Part shown: in pieces, positions 10,759-33,595 of the stretch
How positions within the stretch are numbered: the first letter of the stretch is position 1
Layout of the letters: each line of letters begins with the position of its first letter
IMG/VR virus record: IMGVR_UViG_3300005613_000241
Coordinates: 1-33,595 of that record
Length of the DNA: 33,595 nt
Source of the DNA: a virus
Direction: 5' to 3' (one strand)
Position numbers and translations under genes: made by a program
The notes under the pieces: generated by a model
Told to the model about the DNA's origin: nothing
Database searches by the model: none
What the model saw: the letters and a program-made list of their open reading frames with translations, nothing else

Positions 10759-11106
10759 TTATGCCCCCTTTGTTGTTCCTTTAACTTCTATTAATAAATC
10801 AGTATCACCGCTTGAAAATGTTACCTTAGGGCGCACATAAACAAAATTAGGTTCAATATCAACTCGATGAACCCCAGAAGCACCAGAAATTGAAATAGTG
10901 CCGCTAAATACTAAATCTCTCCACTCTGTTTTATCGTTTGAATACTCAAAAACAACAGTAGCAACGGGCGTGTTTCCGTTTGACCAAATAATATCGTAGC
11001 TAACTAAGTCCACATTTTCGCAATATGTAGCTGCTCCGGTAGTCGTTGTGTCCAGGCCTGTTTCATCTATGATATCTTTAGGCCCTATTAATAATTTCCT
11101 TCCCAT
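10759..11106 (-). CDS. Small beta-sandwich virion protein (paralogue of the gene at 30201)
   Basis: The 115-residue protein is mostly beta strands: VATVVFEYSNDKTEWRDL, then HRVDIEPNFVYVRPKVTF, then SSGDTDLLIEVKGTTKG. It aligns by eye from end to end with the 110-aa protein at 30201-30533 (shared TGxDxTT, SNDxE/N...DL, ASG, GDxDL, TKG). The fold looks like a small carbohydrate-binding or head-decoration sandwich. It ends one base before the next gene. It has a good AGGGGCAAAA ribosome site. A virion role is inferred from its place among tail genes. Confidence 0.65.
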   Translation of the reverse strand: MGRKLLIGPKDIIDETGLDTTTTGAATYCENVDLVSYDIIWSNGNTPVATVVFEYSNDKTEWRDLVFSGTISISGASGVHRVDIEPNFVYVRPKVTFSSGDTDLLIEVKGTTKGA

Positions 11107-22785: not shown

Positions 22786-24006
22786 TTAAGCAAGCTTAAG
22801 CCTGATGTTCCATCCTGGGGCACGGCAACCAAGTTGGGCATAGTAACCAGTTCTAACTTCTACACCATCCTCGTCACTTTCTCTTAAAACTCTATTTCCA
22901 TCATGCATAAGCATTTTTGGAGCTTCGCCTAGTGAGTAAAGTTTCCAAACGTTAAGCTGTAGCATCCACGCTACATCGTCAGGACAGTTTTGATCAGCTA
23001 TAACAGTCACTGCACCTTTAGAGGTATTAAGCTTAATACCTCTAAATCCAATTCCAACGTCCGACATTAGGTCAACATATTGAACCTTAGAGCCTAAAGA
23101 TTTCTCTAAGATCCCATAACGATTATAAGACATAAAAGTATGAGTTGGATTTCCACCTTCTCTTTGGACTCTTTTCGCTCCATCAATAAGACCTTCTTCT
23201 AGTGGCATTGAAGAAATATCTTTTCTTAGTCCAGCAAGTCTTGTGTCTACTGATCTATCAACGCCAAAAAAGCTATCGCCTGATGATGGCATTGTTGCTG
23301 GTATCCATGCATCTAGTCCCTTAACTTTTGAATCATAGTCACCTTGAACAAATAGATAATCATCAGCGGCCCAATCGTTTGAAGTAAATGAGTCATATGC
23401 TGCTGACATTGTTAATACGCCTAAATCTCTATCAACTGCAACAACTGACAAAGTGTTGTCAACTGAAGCTGTTTGCTTAACAGATCCACCACCAGCGGCT
23501 GTTGATGCTACTAATTTCATTCCTACTTCAAAGTTAGTTACTTCTTCAGTATCCTTCAAAGTAATATAAATAGTTGATGCTGACCCGATTTGGCCAATAG
23601 CACCTGAACCATTTCTAAATTCTGCTGTTGAAAGTGAACGTGTCACTGATTCAAAAGTACCGTCTATTTCTGTTGCCATTGCTTCCATGAAAGCGTTTTT
23701 GTCGCCTTTGGAAGCATCGATAGTTTCGCCATCAATTGAACAAAGACCGTAATCTTTTGCTCTGGTTAAAACAAAGTCAGTGTAGCGTCCAGCAACTTTA
23801 TTGCTTTTTGCTGTTGAGAATGTAGAAGAACGACCTTGGGGATTTCCATAGATGATTGGAACAGGTAAATTCTTTCCACCAAACATTGTCATTTTAGGGA
23901 CGAGAGCGTGAAACGGGTTGTCCTGATAAGTCATTCTCTTGACCATATCATTAGTATAGTGCTGCTTAAGAGCTGCATCAAATGAAGTTAAATTTAAAGC
24001 TGTCAT
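22786..24006 (-). CDS. Major capsid protein
   Basis: The protein has 406 residues. Features of HK97-fold capsid proteins of podoviruses are present: an N-terminal arm (HYTNDMVKRMTYQDNPFHAL), the substrate-like stretch PVPIIYGNPQGRSSTF, DYGLCSIDGETIDAS, a central helix with VTRSLSTAEFRNGSGAIGQI, and a beta-rich C-terminus (GAVTVIADQNCPDDVAWMLQ, then GCRAPGWNIRLKLA). It is placed between scaffold and hairpin, and its gene is likely the most highly expressed. The fold is inferred from order and recognisable family segments. Confidence 0.85.
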   Translation of the reverse strand: MTALNLTSFDAALKQHYTNDMVKRMTYQDNPFHALVPKMTMFGGKNLPVPIIYGNPQGRSSTFSTAKSNKVAGRYTDFVLTRAKDYGLCSIDGETIDASKGDKNAFMEAMATEIDGTFESVTRSLSTAEFRNGSGAIGQIGSASTIYITLKDTEEVTNFEVGMKLVASTAAGGGSVKQTASVDNTLSVVAVDRDLGVLTMSAAYDSFTSNDWAADDYLFVQGDYDSKVKGLDAWIPATMPSSGDSFFGVDRSVDTRLAGLRKDISSMPLEEGLIDGAKRVQREGGNPTHTFMSYNRYGILEKSLGSKVQYVDLMSDVGIGFRGIKLNTSKGAVTVIADQNCPDDVAWMLQLNVWKLYSLGEAPKMLMHDGNRVLRESDEDGVEVRTGYYAQLGCRAPGWNIRLKLA

Positions 24007-24027: not shown

Positions 24028-25050
24028 TTATTCGTTATACTGCAAAATTTCAGCCGCTCTTCTAATTGATTCTGATCTATCCATAGGCCTATTGCTCGCA
24101 GGCGGATTAGAAGTAGTGAAGCTACTATTTAATGTATTGGGGGAATTACTAGGCTGGAAGGACTCTGCTTTGTGCTGTGCTTGATCCAGAAATGATTCAG
24201 TAGCTGTTGGCGTCTGACCATCTCCGGATTGTCCATATTTCCCGAATTTCTTGTATTTTATCACTCGTTGCAGTATTTGTTCAAGGTTTTTTTCAACTTT
24301 ATCCATTGCTTGCTTAGGATCAATGATCTTCCCAGTTTGCTGGTACTCTTTTTCCATTTCATTAAAGACAAGCTGGTAAGCTTTTTCACCCTGAATCAGC
24401 TCATATTTTGGAGTACCATCTGGGTCTTTTTCTTCAGCGGCAATATTCTCAAAAGTTTTCATTAGTTGACTAACTTGCTGTTGCTCTTGCTGCTTCTGGT
24501 ACTTCAGCCTTTGCTCCTCTTCTGCTTTCTTTTGATTTTCAAAAAACTCTGTTTGCTTCTTCTCAAGATCTTGAACTTTTTTCATAAGCTCTGCTTCTCT
24601 TCGAGAAGATGGCATTTTGTCGTCACGATATCTCTCTTGGATATCGCCAAAATCAAGGCCAAGCTCCTCTATCGCCGCCATTGGATCTTGCTCTTTAAGA
24701 TTGTAAGCTTGCTCAAACTTGGAATACTTCTCCTTTAACCTAATGGCTTCTTCTTCCATTTGCTTTGCTCTCATCTCTCTTTCTACTGCTGCCCTCTCTG
24801 CTTTTGCGATCCTTTCGAGCTTTTGATACACATCCTGATCATTGTTATTGTTCTGATTGCTCTCAACCCCAACGACGTCACTGGTTTGCTGTCTCTCAGG
24901 ATCAACTTGCTGTTGTTGCCCTTCTTTCTGGCCAGACTGCTCAATTTGCTCATACTTTGTTGCCAAGCTTTCAAAATATCCACCTTGGTTTTCTTGTGAC
25001 TGCTGACCTTCTACTGGTGCTTGCGCTTCTTGTCCTTGTCCTTGTTCCAT
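24028..25050 (-). CDS. Scaffold protein
   Basis: The 340-residue protein is highly charged and Gln-rich. A disordered N-terminus (GQGQEAQAPVEGQQSQENQG) leads into long coiled-coil helices at about 70-220 (LERIAKAERAAVEREMRAKQ, then ELMKKVQDLEKKQTEFFENQ), and a basic C-terminal region follows (QRVIKYKKFGKYG). Phage scaffolds have this composition and lie between portal and capsid genes. It would guide capsid assembly and leave the shell during maturation. No protease domain is visible. Confidence 0.82.
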   Translation of the reverse strand: MEQGQGQEAQAPVEGQQSQENQGGYFESLATKYEQIEQSGQKEGQQQQVDPERQQTSDVVGVESNQNNNNDQDVYQKLERIAKAERAAVEREMRAKQMEEEAIRLKEKYSKFEQAYNLKEQDPMAAIEELGLDFGDIQERYRDDKMPSSRREAELMKKVQDLEKKQTEFFENQKKAEEEQRLKYQKQQEQQQVSQLMKTFENIAAEEKDPDGTPKYELIQGEKAYQLVFNEMEKEYQQTGKIIDPKQAMDKVEKNLEQILQRVIKYKKFGKYGQSGDGQTPTATESFLDQAQHKAESFQPSNSPNTLNSSFTTSNPPASNRPMDRSESIRRAAEILQYNE

Positions 25051-25064
25051 TTTGCCTCACTTGT

Positions 25065-26960
25065 TTATGTTGGTAATTCTTGATTTTCCATTTGCCCCAT
25101 CGGACTGTCAGGTAACTGATTCAGAAGAGCATCGTCTATGGCCGGAGCTGATTCTGGTATCTCTGACGGAATCAGCTCTTGATTTTCTGGAGCCATATTT
25201 ACTTCTTCTTGCTGACCAAAAAGAATTTCGTAAGCGTCTGACTTCCATTGCTGCAATAAGTTTAACCTATCGATTGGAACTTTCTTGAGTCTTAAGTCAA
25301 GATAATACGCTTGGCAATACTCAATACCTAACGCTAAGTCTTGGTCAGGTTCAGGGGGCAAATACTTACCCTCTTTAACCATAGTAAATATTGTCTTCAT
25401 AATGTCGTCTTGCTTTGCTTTCTTGATATTAATAATCGGCTTAATATCTGGGTAATCAAGCAAAGAGATTGCTTCTTCTTTTGAGAAAAATCCGCTCTTT
25501 GTCATCTCGACAACTGTTGACAACTTACCTGCTGGTTCAGTCGGTAAAAGATTGGTTGGATATAATTGAAGGATATACTCATCATCTTTTAAATTAACAT
25601 CACTCCACTTTATTCTAACAACTCCTTCTGAAGAATCTTTGGTAATAACAGAAAAGCTCTTATCTTCTTCAGATATTTCCTTAGCGATATCCACATATCT
25701 TCTTGCTATCTCTAAGTGAAATTCGTCATATTGCTCTTGCAACACTGCAAATCTTGCTGTCTCAACATCTCTAAATGTCCGAATAGCTTCACCTGAATCT
25801 AGACCTGGCAACTTTGCCCCACCTGCTGACATTTGTGATGCACCAACAATCTCAAAAGCTTTTTGATAAAGGTAATTCAAATGAGAGAAAACCTCTTGCC
25901 CAACAGTTTGTGGTGTGATTACCATTGGTGCATTGCCTTGATACCCAACCATTGACCCAACCTCATTATTCCAATGCTCTTCAACAATGTCTGATCCGTA
26001 TTCATAGAAAACCCGAGGGATTGCCATTAAATGAATAGATTGTTGTATTCTCTTTAATGTTTTGTTTATTTCGTACTGGATTCCAGTTAACAGCTCAGCA
26101 ACACCAACACCCCAGTAACCTATAATTCCCTCTGAAAAAGGAAGTTTAACAAATGGAGAGTACTGATAATCATACGATTCATCCAGTAACATGCAATTAC
26201 TTAAAACAATGCAATGTCTCCCGTCTTTTGCATCTTTCCTTGACGGAAGTCTCCAGGCCTCCACAACCGGAACTAGCTCATTCTCAACCAAATCAAATCC
26301 ACCAAAATATAAATCCTTGTAAACCTCTGATGTAATCTCACCTATTTTACCTGCTTTATCAGAATAAAGTTGTTGCATCCACTTCTTAGATACTAGTTTT
26401 AATTGATAAAAAGTTCTCGGACAATCACCTTCTCTTTCGTCAACTAAAACTTCCTCAGGGTTAACTTTGTCTAAACAAATTTCACTTCCATCTTTATATG
26501 GCTTAACAAAACCATCACCAAACACGCACCCACGCTTTAGAGTTATTGGACTCTTCTTGTAAACATCAGTCATAGAAAACTGACCTGCGGTAAACATGTC
26601 TAACTTCTTCGCTCTCTCTTGCATGTAGTAATCGCCTGAGTTAGTTAAAAATGTTACCTTAGGTTTATTTTTACCGATGTTATTAGTCACTGTGTCGCAC
26701 AAAGATTGAACAACGTTTAAACTCAGCATTTGCATTTTTGACTTTGCTGAAAAGTCGCTTACAAAAACACCCTTGTTTGCATTGTTGTTGTAAAGTCTCA
26801 AGTATCTCAGGTTTTGCTCTGATTTATAAAATTGTCTCTTTTTAATGTCTTTAACTGTGTCAAAAACAGAGTTATATAAATCTTCATCTGACTGAGCTTC
26901 AAACCAATACATTCTCTCTTTTGATTTGCCTGCAAATTTATCATAACTATTAAACGCCAT
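25065..26960 (-). CDS. Portal protein
   Basis: The protein has 631 residues from the ATG at 26960 (MAFNSYDKFAGKSKERMYWF), chosen because GGGGGAA lies 6 bases upstream; an upstream in-frame start at 27002 lies inside the preceding gene. It shows P22-type portal features: FKPYKDGSEICLDKVNPEEV-like residues, a central helical wing and barrel region (GVGVAELLTGIQYEINKTLK), and GLDSGEAIRTFRDVETARFA, which is widespread in this family. The C-terminal 60 residues are Gln/Pro/Asp-rich and likely flexible. Twelve copies form the DNA entry channel. The gene overlaps the previous one by 11 bp. Confidence 0.88.
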   Translation of the reverse strand: MAFNSYDKFAGKSKERMYWFEAQSDEDLYNSVFDTVKDIKKRQFYKSEQNLRYLRLYNNNANKGVFVSDFSAKSKMQMLSLNVVQSLCDTVTNNIGKNKPKVTFLTNSGDYYMQERAKKLDMFTAGQFSMTDVYKKSPITLKRGCVFGDGFVKPYKDGSEICLDKVNPEEVLVDEREGDCPRTFYQLKLVSKKWMQQLYSDKAGKIGEITSEVYKDLYFGGFDLVENELVPVVEAWRLPSRKDAKDGRHCIVLSNCMLLDESYDYQYSPFVKLPFSEGIIGYWGVGVAELLTGIQYEINKTLKRIQQSIHLMAIPRVFYEYGSDIVEEHWNNEVGSMVGYQGNAPMVITPQTVGQEVFSHLNYLYQKAFEIVGASQMSAGGAKLPGLDSGEAIRTFRDVETARFAVLQEQYDEFHLEIARRYVDIAKEISEEDKSFSVITKDSSEGVVRIKWSDVNLKDDEYILQLYPTNLLPTEPAGKLSTVVEMTKSGFFSKEEAISLLDYPDIKPIINIKKAKQDDIMKTIFTMVKEGKYLPPEPDQDLALGIEYCQAYYLDLRLKKVPIDRLNLLQQWKSDAYEILFGQQEEVNMAPENQELIPSEIPESAPAIDDALLNQLPDSPMGQMENQELPT

Positions 26961-27228
26961 ATAGTTCCCCCATTTCCTTGCTATTAATATTTTCTTTACC
27001 AAAAATAAAATCTTTTAATTCATCCTTAGCTGGTTCCTTCTTTTTCTTTTCAGGCAAATCATTAAGTAATGCTTTTTTTTCTAAGATATGCCTAGCAATC
27101 CCCTCTCTTGTTAGCTCTATTTCTATCACTTCATCGCTAACTTTGAGTTTAACAATTTCATTATCTTTCATAAAATCTGATAGGCTTTTTATATGCCCAT
27201 CTATTACCGTACCTCTGTCTACAGCCAT
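26950..27228 (-). CDS. Small protein between terminase and portal, unknown role
   Basis: The 92-residue protein has a short beta section (EIVKLKVSDEVIEIELTREG) and a charged, helical second half with a lysine run (LPEKKKKEPAKDELKDFIFG). It overlaps the terminase gene by 10 bp upstream and the portal gene by 11 bp downstream, and AAGGAG lies before the start, so it is clearly translated with them. No family is recognised. A packaging or portal-assembly factor is possible from position. Confidence 0.65.
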   Translation of the reverse strand: MAVDRGTVIDGHIKSLSDFMKDNEIVKLKVSDEVIEIELTREGIARHILEKKALLNDLPEKKKKEPAKDELKDFIFGKENINSKEMGELYGV

Positions 27229-28625
27229 GCTTCCAACTCCTTTTCTTCTTTTATCTTCTTGACCATTTCTTTTGCTTCCATTTCCTCTTCCATTCTCATA
27301 TATTCATCAGAGTTTTTACTATACTTAATTGGTTCATCTTTAGCTACATAGTGCTTTGCTTCTCTCCATGCGTAAAGACCGGAATCTGAGCAATGATTTT
27401 GACATCTGGGATCTTCTTTTTCTTTGTCCTCATCAACCCATATCAATTGACTCCACTCTGTTTCAAGCTCGTTACACTCTCCCTCCAATATACAAGCATT
27501 ACCCTCTATAAAATCATCCCTCATTAGCCTTAAATATGTCGCCTTTGCAGTTTTCTCTGCTGACTGTAATGGTAAATGCCACCTGTTTCTAAGCTCCATC
27601 ACACCTTGTTTATTTGCTCCATCAATCACAATTCTGAAAAACGGATAATCTTTCTGAAGCTGAGTAATTACCTTACTCACACCTGTAAAATCAAGATTCG
27701 CTTTTTTAAAACTCTTAACGAAAAATACTTTTTTAATATACTTATTAAAAGCAATAATTGTAAAAGCATTTGCATCATTGTAACCAATATCAACACCAAG
27801 AACAAATTGCCATCTGGTTTTAGGGTTAATTTTCGGCAACTCTTTAACTATATTATGATCATCGACTTTTATAATCATCAACTCATCATCAGTACACCAT
27901 TCATTTAAATAATGAGTCCTGAACCATGAAGCAAACTTTGATAGAGGATTTCTTTTGAGTATTTTTTCAATTTGAGCTAGGAAGTTAACTCTAACATGTG
28001 GATTCTCTGCTGCTGTCCATTTATGTACTGACCAACCAGCTTCCCTACCCTCTGTAACTGATTCAAAAAAAGTGTTAGGGATGTTTTCACAAGTCCCAAG
28101 AAGTATTAGCATACCTTTTTGATCGATTAATGTTGGTTCGATCATTTGGTAAACTAACCGCTTCATGTCTATCGTGAAAGATCCGGCCTCATCTATTGCA
28201 ACCTTCTTATATTTTTGCCCTAATATTTTTCTCATTTGCTTTTCAGAACAATCAGCACCTGCCAATTTTATGAGTGACTTGTTTGGGTGCCGCAACTCTG
28301 AGCGTGCTTCATTTGGAACAAATCCGAGATTGTTTCTTTCATTTATTTCTTTTAAATCATCCCAACAAATCCCCCTTGCACTATCTATCGTTAATGCCAT
28401 GTATAAATATTTTGTCTTCGGATTGTTTTTTGCACTCTCAAGAAAGTCAATTACTACTGCAAGCGTCTTACCTGCTCTTCTTGTGCAATTATAAGCTTTA
28501 AGGCTTGATGGATCATTAATAGCTTTGTTCTGAACAGTGAACTCAGGATCTCTTAAATCTACTTTTTCCTCAATGCCTGCTCTGAGAATAATTTCTCTAA
28601 GAATAGCATCAACGCTTACTTTCAT
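27219..28625 (-). CDS. terL: Terminase large subunit
   Basis: The 468-residue protein is the DNA-packaging motor. The ATPase domain has a Walker A-like loop CTRRAGKTLA (47-56, Lys53), Walker B KVAIDEAGSF with Asp145 and Glu146, and a coupling motif LLGTCEN around Thr178. The nuclease domain starts at FVLGVDIGYND with Asp279 and continues with RIVIDGANKQ (Asp335), as in RNase H-fold terminases. It lies between small terminase and portal genes. The ribosome site is weak and the start overlaps the previous gene by 17 bp, suggesting coupled translation. Confidence 0.92.
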   Translation of the reverse strand: MKVSVDAILREIILRAGIEEKVDLRDPEFTVQNKAINDPSSLKAYNCTRRAGKTLAVVIDFLESAKNNPKTKYLYMALTIDSARGICWDDLKEINERNNLGFVPNEARSELRHPNKSLIKLAGADCSEKQMRKILGQKYKKVAIDEAGSFTIDMKRLVYQMIEPTLIDQKGMLILLGTCENIPNTFFESVTEGREAGWSVHKWTAAENPHVRVNFLAQIEKILKRNPLSKFASWFRTHYLNEWCTDDELMIIKVDDHNIVKELPKINPKTRWQFVLGVDIGYNDANAFTIIAFNKYIKKVFFVKSFKKANLDFTGVSKVITQLQKDYPFFRIVIDGANKQGVMELRNRWHLPLQSAEKTAKATYLRLMRDDFIEGNACILEGECNELETEWSQLIWVDEDKEKEDPRCQNHCSDSGLYAWREAKHYVAKDEPIKYSKNSDEYMRMEEEMEAKEMVKKIKEEKELEAWL

Positions 28626-28934: not shown

Positions 28935-29351
28935 TTAAATAAACTCGATTGGTAAGTAATCTATTGGGTATTTTTCGATATATTTCTTCCAGGCCTTGCT
29001 TCTGCTTTTAAAGCAATAATAACTAGGGATACCATTAAATGATTTTTCTACCATCATTTTAAAAAGGCCATTCTCTCGATATATATGCTTAACATGAGCA
29101 TAGATAATAGCGTCTTTTATTGCGTCGTAAATGATATACCCTAATATCTGAAACTCGGCATCTTCTGGACATAAGACAGAAACATTTAACTTTTCTGTCT
29201 TACTATCAAGTAACTTATTCATGTGCTTTTCAAAGTCACAATATTGCATCAACCTATAATCGTTTACCTTGCATCTATATAAACTTTTTTTAATAGTAGA
29301 GTAAACAAAGTTCTTATCTTCTTTGTTCCAGTTTCTAATCTTTATTTTCAT
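28935..29351 (-). CDS. GNAT-like N-acetyltransferase fold protein
   Basis: The protein has 138 residues. The order is GNAT-like: KIKIRNWNKEDKNFVYSTI at the start, then beta strands SVLCPEDAEFQILGYIIYD, then AIIYAHVKHIYRENGLFKMM, which corresponds to the strand, loop and helix that bind acetyl-CoA. The usual Q/RxxGxG/A loop is changed (YRENGLFK), so activity is uncertain. Proteins of this kind often lie beside phage terminase genes, with unknown substrates. The first bases overlap the small terminase by 17 bp. Confidence 0.6.
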   Translation of the reverse strand: MKIKIRNWNKEDKNFVYSTIKKSLYRCKVNDYRLMQYCDFEKHMNKLLDSKTEKLNVSVLCPEDAEFQILGYIIYDAIKDAIIYAHVKHIYRENGLFKMMVEKSFNGIPSYYCFKSRSKAWKKYIEKYPIDYLPIEFI

Positions 29352-29844
29352 TTAACTTCTTAATTGCTTTTTGGGCCAGCTCAATCAACGACCCGTCTTT
29401 TGCAGACTTATAATCAAAATCAATATTAGCTCTATCTCTCCATTGCTCCGGTTGTCTGTTTTTTAACCAAAATATTATGGCGGTGACATCTGGTAAAATA
29501 ACTTTATCAACTTCTTGTGTTGTTGCCATTCCGTTAAAGAATCCCACCTTAGTCTCTTTTACAGTGCACCCGATTGCCCTATTATAAAGGGATCTGACAA
29601 TTTTCTCATCTGCTATGCTCTTCCAATTCTTTAAGGACTCAAAAAAATTTGGGTTAGATTTTTTCCAATTATTTATCGTTTGTTCCTTCACTTCTAAGAT
29701 CGTTGCGACTTGCTTATCAGTGAATCCATAAGAGTAAAGAAGCTCAAATTTCTTCATATCTAATTCATTGAATTTCGTTGGACGACCAACTGGCTTCTTC
29801 TTTTTTACTACTTTCTTTTTTGATGCAGCTATAAGCCCCTCCAT
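29335..29844 (-). CDS. terS: Terminase small subunit
   Basis: The protein has 169 residues. A basic start (KKKVVKKKKPVGRPTKF) leads to a helix-turn-helix at about 35-64 (YGFTDKQVATILEVKEQTIN). The C-terminal VTAIIFWLKNRQPEQWRDRA is a common signature of small terminases. It would recognise the packaging site and recruit the large subunit. The ATG lacks a clear ribosome site upstream, and GGAGGGG lies just inside the reading frame, so the true start could differ by a few codons. It follows the previous stop by 3 bases. Confidence 0.88.
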   Translation of the reverse strand: MEGLIAASKKKVVKKKKPVGRPTKFNELDMKKFELLYSYGFTDKQVATILEVKEQTINNWKKSNPNFFESLKNWKSIADEKIVRSLYNRAIGCTVKETKVGFFNGMATTQEVDKVILPDVTAIIFWLKNRQPEQWRDRANIDFDYKSAKDGSLIELAQKAIKKLNENKD

Positions 29845-29847
29845 GTA

Positions 29848-30126
29848 TTAGCTAATTACTAGCTTTGCTTTTTTTAACTCTGCTAACCTGATTGCTGCTT
29901 GCCTTCTCTTTAGCTCTCTTCTGTACTTTTTTGATAAAGAGTTTTTAATGATCGGCTTGCCATTGTTATAAATCAAATTAAATTCATTTCTCTTGTAAGT
30001 CTTCTGATTATCACGCTTAACACTAAAATCTTTTGCTTTTGTTGATGGCAAAGCAATCGTTGCTCCAATAGTACTTTCTAACCGTTTAAACATCTTTTCA
30101 GAAATAGGGACGGTAACATCAGTCAC
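29848..30126 (-). CDS. Small basic protein, unknown role
   Basis: The 92-residue protein starts at a GTG, with an excellent GGAGG six to seven bases upstream that lies within the last codons of the 24-aa gene (GTGA overlap). The sequence is strongly basic, especially the C-terminal half (SLSKKYRRELKRRQAAIRLA). It may bind DNA or RNA. No family is recognised. Its place directly before the small terminase suggests a role in head or DNA packaging. Confidence 0.65.
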   Translation of the reverse strand: MTDVTVPISEKMFKRLESTIGATIALPSTKAKDFSVKRDNQKTYKRNEFNLIYNNGKPIIKNSLSKKYRRELKRRQAAIRLAELKKAKLVIS

Positions 30127-30197
30127 TTATAACCTCCCTTACCCTTACCTTTACCTTTACCTCCACTACTTTTTCCTTTTCCTTTTCCGCATCCCAT
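30123..30197 (-). CDS. 24-aa Gly/Lys peptide gene
   Basis: A complete very short gene: ATG at 30197, TGA ending at 30123. The peptide begins MGCGKGKGK, has a short Ser-Ser-Gly middle and ends KGKGKGKGGYK. AAAAGGG lies about 6 bases before the ATG. It starts 3 bases after the stop of the 110-aa gene, and its stop overlaps the next GTG start by 4 bases. Such packing strongly suggests translation. Gly/Lys repeats can contact nucleic acid or condensed DNA; alternatively the gene may be a purine-rich leader that couples translation of the next gene. Confidence 0.55.
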   Translation of the reverse strand: MGCGKGKGKSSGGKGKGKGKGGYK

Positions 30198-30200
30198 TAC

Positions 30201-30533
30201 TTACCCTTTTGTTGACAAATAACTATCCAGATCGATATCTCCGCCTGTTAATGTTAAAACTATTTTCATATACGAAAAGCCAGCACAACCGTCATAATTA
30301 AAAAATACTTCCCCACTTGCATCTGACAAAGTTTCTGAATAATCTGTTAAATCAATAAAGTTTTCACCGTCATTTGATATCTGTATTTTGTATGTTCCAC
30401 CAACTGTACCAGAATTTTTTGTCCATTTTCCGTGAAGAGAAAAAGCATAAACTTCCCTTAAGTCAATGACACTGCTTTCTGTAGTTGCATCAATTCCAGT
30501 TCCTGAAAAAACATTATCTTGTGAATGTCTCAT
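30201..30533 (-). CDS. Beta-sandwich virion-like protein (paralogue of the gene at 10759)
   Basis: The 110-residue protein is mostly beta strands (VGGTYKIQISNDGENFIDL, then YMKIVLTLTGGDIDLDSYL) and ends in STKG. It aligns across its full length with the 115-aa protein encoded near the tail fibre. Its gene lies among the first genes of the late operon, before the terminases. GGAGGGG precedes the start. Virion role is inferred from the paralogue. Confidence 0.65.
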   Translation of the reverse strand: MRHSQDNVFSGTGIDATTESSVIDLREVYAFSLHGKWTKNSGTVGGTYKIQISNDGENFIDLTDYSETLSDASGEVFFNYDGCAGFSYMKIVLTLTGGDIDLDSYLSTKG

Positions 30534-32381: not shown

Positions 32382-32522
32382 TCACTTTCTTCCCCCTTCC
32401 CTTTCCCTTAATATATCGCTTTCAACTTCAAAGACTAATTCCCTCAGCGACTTACAATTCATTGAAATGTATGCCAACACTATCAGCATAAATTTAATTT
32501 TTACGTTCTCACTTATTTTCAT
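32382..32522 (-). CDS. 46-aa membrane-peptide gene
   Basis: A short complete gene: ATG at 32522 overlaps the stop of the pentapeptide gene (ATGA), GGGGAG lies upstream, and TGA ends at 32382. The peptide has a hydrophobic core FMLIVLAYISMNC near the start and a charged tail (FEVESDILREREGGRK). It could insert in the membrane; the Cys is not in a good lipobox. No family recognised. The exact coupling to the previous gene is the main evidence that it is real. Confidence 0.5.
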   Translation of the reverse strand: MKISENVKIKFMLIVLAYISMNCKSLRELVFEVESDILREREGGRK

Positions 32523-33196
32523 TTCTCTTCTCCCCAAAATTCTTTATATCGATGAAAATTCTCTCTTATAAAATCCATTTGATCTTCAGTCGGCTTACAG
32601 TCAGGCGATACTCTAAAAGCATGAGCTAAAAGTTGTGCTTGTAGTTTTTTGCAAAGTTTTACGATTTTTGTAGTGCAAGATAGTGCCCATGATGAATAGT
32701 CGAGGTTTGCACGTCTAAGATCGACATCTCTGATATTGGCATCTTTAAGATCGGCACCCCTAAAATCGGCGCTTCTAAGATCGGCACCACTAAAATCGGC
32801 ACGTCTAAGATCGGCACCACTAAAATCGGCACGTCTAAGATCGGCACCCCTAAAATCGGCGCTTCTAAGATCGGCATCTCTGAAATTGGCACGAACACCG
32901 CCATCTTTATTCAGCCATTTCTTGTGACTATTTAGTATTTCTTTCAGTTTTCTTCCTTCATTTTCACACCCTGTATATTTTTTAACAGCATTATAAAGAA
33001 ATTCGAGTTCTTTCTTTTCAAATTGAACATTAATTCTTGTGTCGATTTTTTCCTTATATCCAGTCATTACAAGTATTTCTTCAGTAATTACCCATGCTGG
33101 AACTGATTTTTTAACACCAGAAAAATTATAAAGCCTTTCAATTTTCTCTCTAGCATCATCAGAATATTTAAAATTATCTTTGATTATTTGCAACAT
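32519..33196 (-). CDS. Pentapeptide-repeat protein with flanking helical domains
   Basis: The protein has 225 residues from the ATG at 33196, chosen for the GGAGAG six bases upstream; an in-frame ATG at 33214 lacks a ribosome site. Residues 1-100 are helical and charged. Residues about 101-165 are regular A(D/N)Lxx repeats (ADLRSADFRG, ADLRRADFSG, and so on), forming a short quadrilateral beta helix. The last 55 residues are helical again (KIVKLCKKLQAQLLAHAF). The repeats are nearly identical in DNA (32757-32876). Such folds may bind topoisomerase or other DNA-binding proteins, but the role here is unknown. Confidence 0.78.
   Translation of the reverse strand: MLQIIKDNFKYSDDAREKIERLYNFSGVKKSVPAWVITEEILVMTGYKEKIDTRINVQFEKKELEFLYNAVKKYTGCENEGRKLKEILNSHKKWLNKDGGVRANFRDADLRSADFRGADLRRADFSGADLRRADFSGADLRSADFRGADLKDANIRDVDLRRANLDYSSWALSCTTKIVKLCKKLQAQLLAHAFRVSPDCKPTEDQMDFIRENFHRYKEFWGEEK
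32757..32876 (-). repeat. Four 30-bp repeats in A-B-B-A order
   Basis: Units of 30 bases at 32757, 32787, 32817 and 32847. The first and fourth are identical (with GGCGCTTCTAAG), and the second and third are identical (with GGCACGTCTAAG). They encode ten residues each, two pentapeptides. Direct in-frame repeats, not a CRISPR array. Confidence 0.93.
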
Positions 33197-33595
33197 TTTC
33201 TCTCTCCATTCCAAATTTTTTTCTTATATGATAAGGATTTTTATTCAAGTTATGAGCCTCAACTAAATAATATCCATTCTTAAAAAGACTTATATCCCAC
33301 GACATACCAAAACCAGATTCTGAGCAAGAACACCTATATGCTTTTTCATAATTAGGATCATCATTCTTCCCAACAAGGACCCACTTACTATCTAAGCATA
33401 AATCACAATTACAACGATTCTTTGTATAATTAACAGGTTTTGGAATACTTTTTGTTGCTTCAACCCAGTCCGGCACTTTCGGAAAATATCGCGAATTCAT
33501 GACTAACTTTTCAACCACAGCATTTAAGTTTTGAATCGGAACCTCTTTCAAAACTTTTATGATGCAATTAAACATGGCCGTTTCATATTTTTTTG
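33174..33595 (-). CDS. Cys-cluster protein, probable replication helicase-loader-like, cut by window edge
   Basis: The frame is open to the window edge, and the ATG at 33575 has no good ribosome site, so the gene probably starts outside. The visible 133 residues after that Met have AVVEKLVMNSRYFPKVPDWV, reminiscent of the helical domain in phage replication loader proteins, then a Cys cluster: Cys55, Cys57, Cys60 and Cys82, Cys84, likely a zinc site. It overlaps the pentapeptide gene by 23 bases. The loader role is a low-confidence inference from pattern and from the neighbourhood of early genes. Confidence 0.55.
   Translation of the reverse strand, partial: KKYETAMFNCIIKVLKEVPIQNLNAVVEKLVMNSRYFPKVPDWVEATKSIPKPVNYTKNRCNCDLCLDSKWVLVGKNDDPNYEKAYRCSCSESGFGMSWDISLFKNGYYLVEAHNLNKNPYHIRKKFGMERENVANNQR

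Follow-up and report, generated by a model that had tools for sequence, protein, structure and literature searches.

An open reading frame (ORF) of 24 residues, mostly glycine and lysine, resembles a real tiny basic gene of a viral packaging and head operon. Similar peptides are encoded by dozens of unrelated bacterial viruses, often at comparable places, which suggests that a class of tiny viral peptides has been overlooked. Judged from codon changes among related sequences, this class includes coding genes under amino-acid-level purifying selection in at least one lineage. The analysed DNA, a linear virus record of 33,595 nucleotides from IMG/VR, is called the window here.

A tiny Gly/Lys ORF packed into the head and packaging operon

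The minus-strand gene order around the ORF is a 165-aa gene, a 110-aa gene, the tiny ORF, a 92-aa gene, the terminase small subunit (TerS), a GNAT-like gene, a 104-aa gene, the terminase large subunit (TerL), a small gene, the portal, a scaffold-like gene and a capsid-like gene. Family matches identify TerS (29335..29844; phrog_309, E 4.7e-39), TerL (27219..28625; phrog_2, E 5.8e-24) and the portal protein (25065..27002; phrog_156, E 5.2e-12), all on the minus strand. The capsid-region gene (22786..24006, minus strand) has no family match and is assigned as major capsid by gene order, coming after the portal and the scaffold-like gene that lies between them (24028-25050, minus strand).

The tiny ORF occupies positions 30123..30197 of the minus strand (read from 30197 to 30123) and encodes MGCGKGKGKSSGGKGKGKGKGGYK, a peptide of 24 residues with a net charge of about +8. 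Besides its Met it contains 11 Gly, 8 Lys, 2 Ser, 1 Cys and 1 Tyr (79% Gly plus Lys) and no acidic residue, with the Cys at position 3, in an MGC start, and the Tyr at position 23, near the C-terminal end. The first-pass annotation had described it as almost only Gly and Lys with one Cys and one Tyr, a description that gets these counts right and omits the two Ser.

The ORF is tightly embedded between its neighbours. Upstream, the 110-aa gene (30201..30533, minus strand), which shows a weak F5/8-type (galactose-binding-like) similarity below the Pfam cut-off (E 0.0011), ends 3 nt before the tiny ORF starts (TAA-GTA-ATG), and the end of this gene contains the ribosome-binding site of the tiny ORF (AAAAGGG, 30204..30210, minus strand), 6 nt before the ATG. 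Downstream, the TGA shares bases with the GTG start of the 92-aa basic gene (29848..30126, minus strand; no family matches) in a GTGA overlap. The coordinates, strand, start, stop, 3-nt gap and GTGA overlap first assigned to the ORF all proved exact. The proposal that it is both a protein and a translation signal for the next gene also agrees with the sequence, as the ribosome-binding site of the 92-aa gene (GGGAGG, 30133..30138, minus strand) sits within the ORF, where GGGAGGT forms the codons K-G-G (AAG GGA GGT) near its end, 6 nt before the GTG. The accompanying view of a tiny basic gene beside terminase holds as far as the packaging and head operon is concerned, but TerS is not adjacent, the 92-aa gene lying between. 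Its position among these genes suggests late expression.

At the nucleic-acid level, an RNA structure or regulatory element was rejected, the mRNA fold being not unusual (z -0.06), as was a promoter or terminator role, for which scans gave chance-level scores; a tRNA search found none.

Several other features of the window were recorded. The 138-aa GNAT-like protein between TerS and TerL (28935..29351, minus strand) was read from its ORF translation and has no PHROGs match; look-alikes, judged by eye, lie upstream of TerL in diverged relatives (L001, L003, L006, L014, L015 and L017). The window's TerL has 468 aa, against 826-836 aa in two capsid relatives (L014:4372-6882 and L015:3454-5934) that carry an intein-like insert close to the N-terminal region of the ATPase. 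The small proteins encoded at 30201-30533 and 10759-11106, one at either end of the structural region, share 28% identity over 98 aa (E 3e-6) and are possibly paired decoration or fibre domains. An ERF-family recombination protein (2039-2620) has a tandem PQQQR repeat near its C-terminal end, and the repeat DNA of a pentapeptide-repeat protein (32519-33214) leaves two further long frames open (32659-32904 on the minus strand and 32736-32927 on the plus strand).

A recurrent class of tiny Gly/Lys peptides

We defined the class as ORFs of at most 35 aa with at least 55% Gly, Lys and Arg and a (GK)3 run, and scanned IMG/VR twice. The first scan, for GKGKGKG with neither a start nor a Cys required, yielded tiny ORFs that include, among the matches listed, MACKGKGKGKGRPK, MGCKKKGKGKGKGK, MKGKGKGKGGGGKKC and MPCSGKGKGKGKGKGGKK; the second, which required a ribosome site (AGGA) and a nearby ATG, gave many more tiny ORFs among the matches listed. 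IMG/VR thereby contains at least 46 non-redundant Gly/Lys peptides of 12-35 aa. Lys accounts for 38.5% and Gly for 35.2% of the residues in these 46 listed peptides; 35 of them are free of acidic residues, and 36 contain no V, I, L, F or W. Cys is present in 30, and in 27 cases it lies among the first four or the last three residues; an M[GAP]C start occurs in 12 of the 46, and six of the Cys-less peptides end in or near Tyr. Ribosome sites precede most listed members, partly by selection since the second scan demanded AGGA, and junctions to neighbouring genes measure 0-4 nt in many. The window's peptide falls within this class, with 24 aa, 79% Gly plus Lys, (GK)3G twice and Cys3 and Tyr23 near its termini, and it shares the head and packaging neighbourhood, with TerS, TerL and portal following in the same orientation. 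The exact MGCGKGKGK pattern had no look-alike in IMG/VR.

A stricter pattern (ribosome site, M-x-C, GKGKGK) occurred at 12 or more loci in the virus sets, where 12 of the 12 listed were tiny ORFs, and gave three matches in 257 Gb of bacterial and archaeal genomes, none of them a tiny Gly/Lys gene. Within the limits of the patterns used, the class looks virus-restricted and is not detectably present in prophages. Searches of Pfam and PHROGs returned no match to the window's peptide, profile searches being weak on low-complexity 24-mers; there was also no PDB match, and we found no paper on Gly/Lys repeat phage peptides. Eukaryote-type acylation, suggested by the MGC start, was rejected, as MAC, MPC and C-terminal Cys forms occur in the class too and the hosts are presumably bacteria. 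Separately, a 62-aa family (MAYTRSADGIAKKGKTEGKN...GGKGKGKGKTNADMLSMGRNLAKIAAQKRG) with the same GKGKGK core was seen in over a dozen contigs (L071, L073, L079, L091, L093, L105, L108, L126, L139, L150, L153, L171 and L173).

Class members often adjoin head genes

The nearest large neighbours of class members, one or two genes per locus, were profiled with PHROGs and compared with 20 random control genes from contigs carrying the motif in long ORFs. Genes with head, packaging or connector functions made up 26/40 of the individually scanned neighbours and 5/20 of the controls (Fisher p 0.006, indicative only because the loci were partly hand-picked by eye for tight packing). The neighbours were portal and scaffold genes in L213, L164 and L251, a scaffold gene in L063, a portal gene in L158, portal and head protease genes in L083, TerL and portal genes in L267, L229 and L282, and a capsid gene in L223, L258 and L109, with head closure, connector or TerL genes next to further members. 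In these other phages the genes adjoin portal, scaffold or capsid, and not terminase in particular.

Some members lie outside head modules, among them one by a tail gene (L252), one near a Sak4-like gene (L255) and one in an accessory region (L133). These, together with the polycationic and Cys-bearing nature of the peptides, would fit a host-directed peptide, active on nucleic acids, ribosomes or membranes and merely travelling in the late operon. We regard this as rather improbable, given the predominance of head-module neighbours described above and the near absence of hydrophobic residues from most listed peptides, unlike in membrane-active peptides.

Amino-acid-level selection in a marine lineage

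Relatives of one peptide-bearing marine contig, L223, were retrieved by capsid (80 in number) and blind to the peptide, a composition filter applied afterwards introducing a mild bias. Most of the closest clade carries the peptide at the same site (MPKGKGKGKGKGGKGY, MPKTKGKGKGKGGKGY, MPKSKGKGKGGKGY, MTKKKGKGGKKY and MSKKQGKGGKKY), its sister clade is missing it, and three more distant relatives have MPKKKPKKGGRGY elsewhere in the module, with a double-base synonymous Arg change. Across the lineage, peptide length drifts in repeat units, and the basic character and terminal Tyr stay. Four comparisons gave synonymous/non-synonymous counts of 5/0, 3/1, 5/0 and 5/0, such that 18 of 19 codon changes were synonymous and one was non-synonymous, with about 23% synonymous expected at random; the binomial test applied to these changes treats them as independent. 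Outside this sum, the MSKKQ form differs from the MTKKK forms by 4-6 synonymous and 2 non-synonymous changes. Amino acids are kept while codons change, and the peptide therefore matters in this lineage.

The ORF of this lineage (L223/L295-L315; uncultured IMG/VR contigs; for example MPKGKGKGKGKGGKGY) is like that of the window in its size, in alternating Gly and Lys, in having a Tyr at the C-terminal end or close to it, in overlapping with neighbouring genes and in lying within a head module. It differs in having no Cys and in following the capsid gene instead of preceding TerS, and the surrounding genes are unrelated in sequence to those of the window as far as tested.

Selection on the amino acids bears on a reading in which the ORF is a translational coupler only, supplying the 92-aa gene with its ribosome site and a signal for re-initiation, with the peptide as a by-product. 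Translation coupling is real at the window's ORF, where the next gene's GGGAGG lies inside the ORF and stop and start overlap, and overlapping junctions of -1 or -4 nt recur in many other listed members. Coupling leaves the amino-acid selection in the marine lineage unexplained, however, as it needs neither Gly/Lys alternation, nor Cys and Tyr, nor amino acids that are conserved while codons change. Furthermore, gaps of 60-240 nt separate some members from the next gene, and the window's mRNA structure is ordinary. Coupling as the sole function consequently appears unlikely to us.

An accessory gene in the window's phage group

Relatives of the window share at most 50% identity in TerL and at most 60% in the capsid, except for L011 (93% in the capsid), an 8-kb contig whose capsid gene lies about 3.4 kb from the upstream end, placing the tiny ORF's site beyond reach. 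Loci of TerL, capsid, TerS and 110-aa-gene relatives held no Gly/Lys tiny ORF, and when 19 whole records, several of them fragments, were searched for a Gly/Lys motif, 17 lacked it; the weak matches in the other two correspond to a longer unrelated ORF and were set aside. Conservation upstream of terS in related phages, put forward in the first-pass annotation as a check, was thus not found: no relative carries the ORF, and the sole close one stops short of the site. The closest synteny is seen in L017, where the 110-aa gene has a homolog of 40% identity at the edge of the head module, followed by a different 45-aa ORF. No relative of the window's capsid turned up in the cultured phage collection, and a search of bacterial and archaeal genomes for capsid relatives gave none; tblastn with a tiny peptide was uninformative, low-complexity masking hiding even the query's own source. 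Because these relatives are without the ORF, the sequence comparisons indicate that the tiny gene is accessory in the window's phage group.

Absence from relatives, together with a length of just 24 codons, is also what would be seen if the ORF were a chance frame and not a gene. This reading is close to refuted, and we give it very little credence. Among 15-60-aa ORFs of 200 first-order Markov genomes the best Gly plus Lys fraction was 53%, compared with 79% in the window's ORF, so that its composition is unreached by chance at the window's base composition; the second-highest fraction among the window's own 15-60-aa ORFs is 0.40. The (GK)3G DNA pattern occurs twice in the window, both times within the tiny ORF, and in none of 100 shuffles. 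Moreover, the operon packing is exact, and the parallel class shows purifying selection.

Comparison with known phage proteins

T7 gp7.3 and gp6.7 are small basic virion proteins encoded next to the portal gene, and gp7.3 has a Lys-rich start; unlike the window's peptide they have about 90-100 aa and are not known to contain Gly/Lys repeats. Closer in size are two hypothetical proteins of Pelagibacter phages, HTVC168P gp29 (MYGKKKAKGKKMLKGGQKKLPMALQKKIMKAKKKK) and HTVC131P gp33, which lie between scaffold and capsid and are likewise tiny, very basic and rich in Tyr, Gly and Lys. They differ in having 34-35 aa, a Lys-dominated composition, a hydrophobic segment, no Cys and few Gly, and both the MYGKK start and the LPxAL..KIM segment of gp29-type proteins are absent from the window's peptide; these proteins may be longer analogues of the class. 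In two pelagiphages a small GLYANIHAKRKRI protein, which has no Pfam match, lies directly 3' of the tiny basic ORF (L376:7391-7540 and L380:7377-7523), and in L129 a protein of this type (MAKQGLYANI) apparently begins after the Gly/Lys ORF, making a conserved pair possible.

Most cultured phages related to the peptide-bearing lineages have no Gly/Lys version in the stretches read, among them Pseudomonas JB8 and tf, the P22-like PfAn1, Microcystis Mae-Yong1326-1, Roseobacter CRP-143 and HTVC010P, and the gene is therefore dispensable in general. Tiny unannotated phage genes as a general category are covered by a catalogue of small phage genes from Fremin et al. 2022 (cited in PMC11364881), whose size floor may exclude peptides of 12-24 aa.

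A model for the role of the peptide

The explanation that we favour, to which we assign an about even chance, is that the window's ORF is a genuine translated late gene for a virus-restricted, disordered cationic peptide that is made together with the head proteins. Its basis is the sequence and packing of the gene, the fact that such a class exists, the head modules around many of its members and the purifying selection seen in one analogous lineage. The ORF would be one member of a class that recurs in unrelated tailed phages, often in their head-morphogenesis modules, and that consists of disordered, strongly cationic Gly/Lys peptides of 12-35 residues; tight coupling would cause its peptide to be co-translated with head proteins. 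While heads are assembled or DNA is packaged, the peptide would then bind polyanions electrostatically, either the DNA being packaged or acidic scaffold and portal surfaces or both, and its terminal Cys and Tyr would anchor or cross-link it. Its charge and location make contact with DNA or the packaging motor plausible; translation of the window's copy, polyanion binding, action in assembly and the role of Cys and Tyr are what we infer.

A strong version of this explanation holds that the peptide resides in the virion and neutralises packaged DNA, as an encoded counter-ion resembling a protamine. A charge of about +8 in 24 residues with no acidic ones, encoded alongside packaging genes, would suit such a role, but an electrostatic effect would presumably require thousands of copies, and the sporadic presence of the gene indicates that phages manage without it; we think it distinctly improbable. 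A broader proposal, offered tentatively and with some doubt, is that these widespread Gly/Lys peptides of 12-30 aa with terminal Cys or Tyr were repeatedly invented as a genetically encoded cofactor, polyamine-like or scaffold-binding, for the assembly or packaging of tailed-phage heads, and would be among the smallest structural genes known, missed so far because gene finders drop such ORFs.

If this is true, head assembly in phages involves a minimal peptide which most annotation pipelines would leave out, and its recurrence across unrelated lineages would suggest a general physical need, such as DNA charge, scaffold binding or head closure. It would also show clearly that very short genes can be under measurable selection at the protein level.
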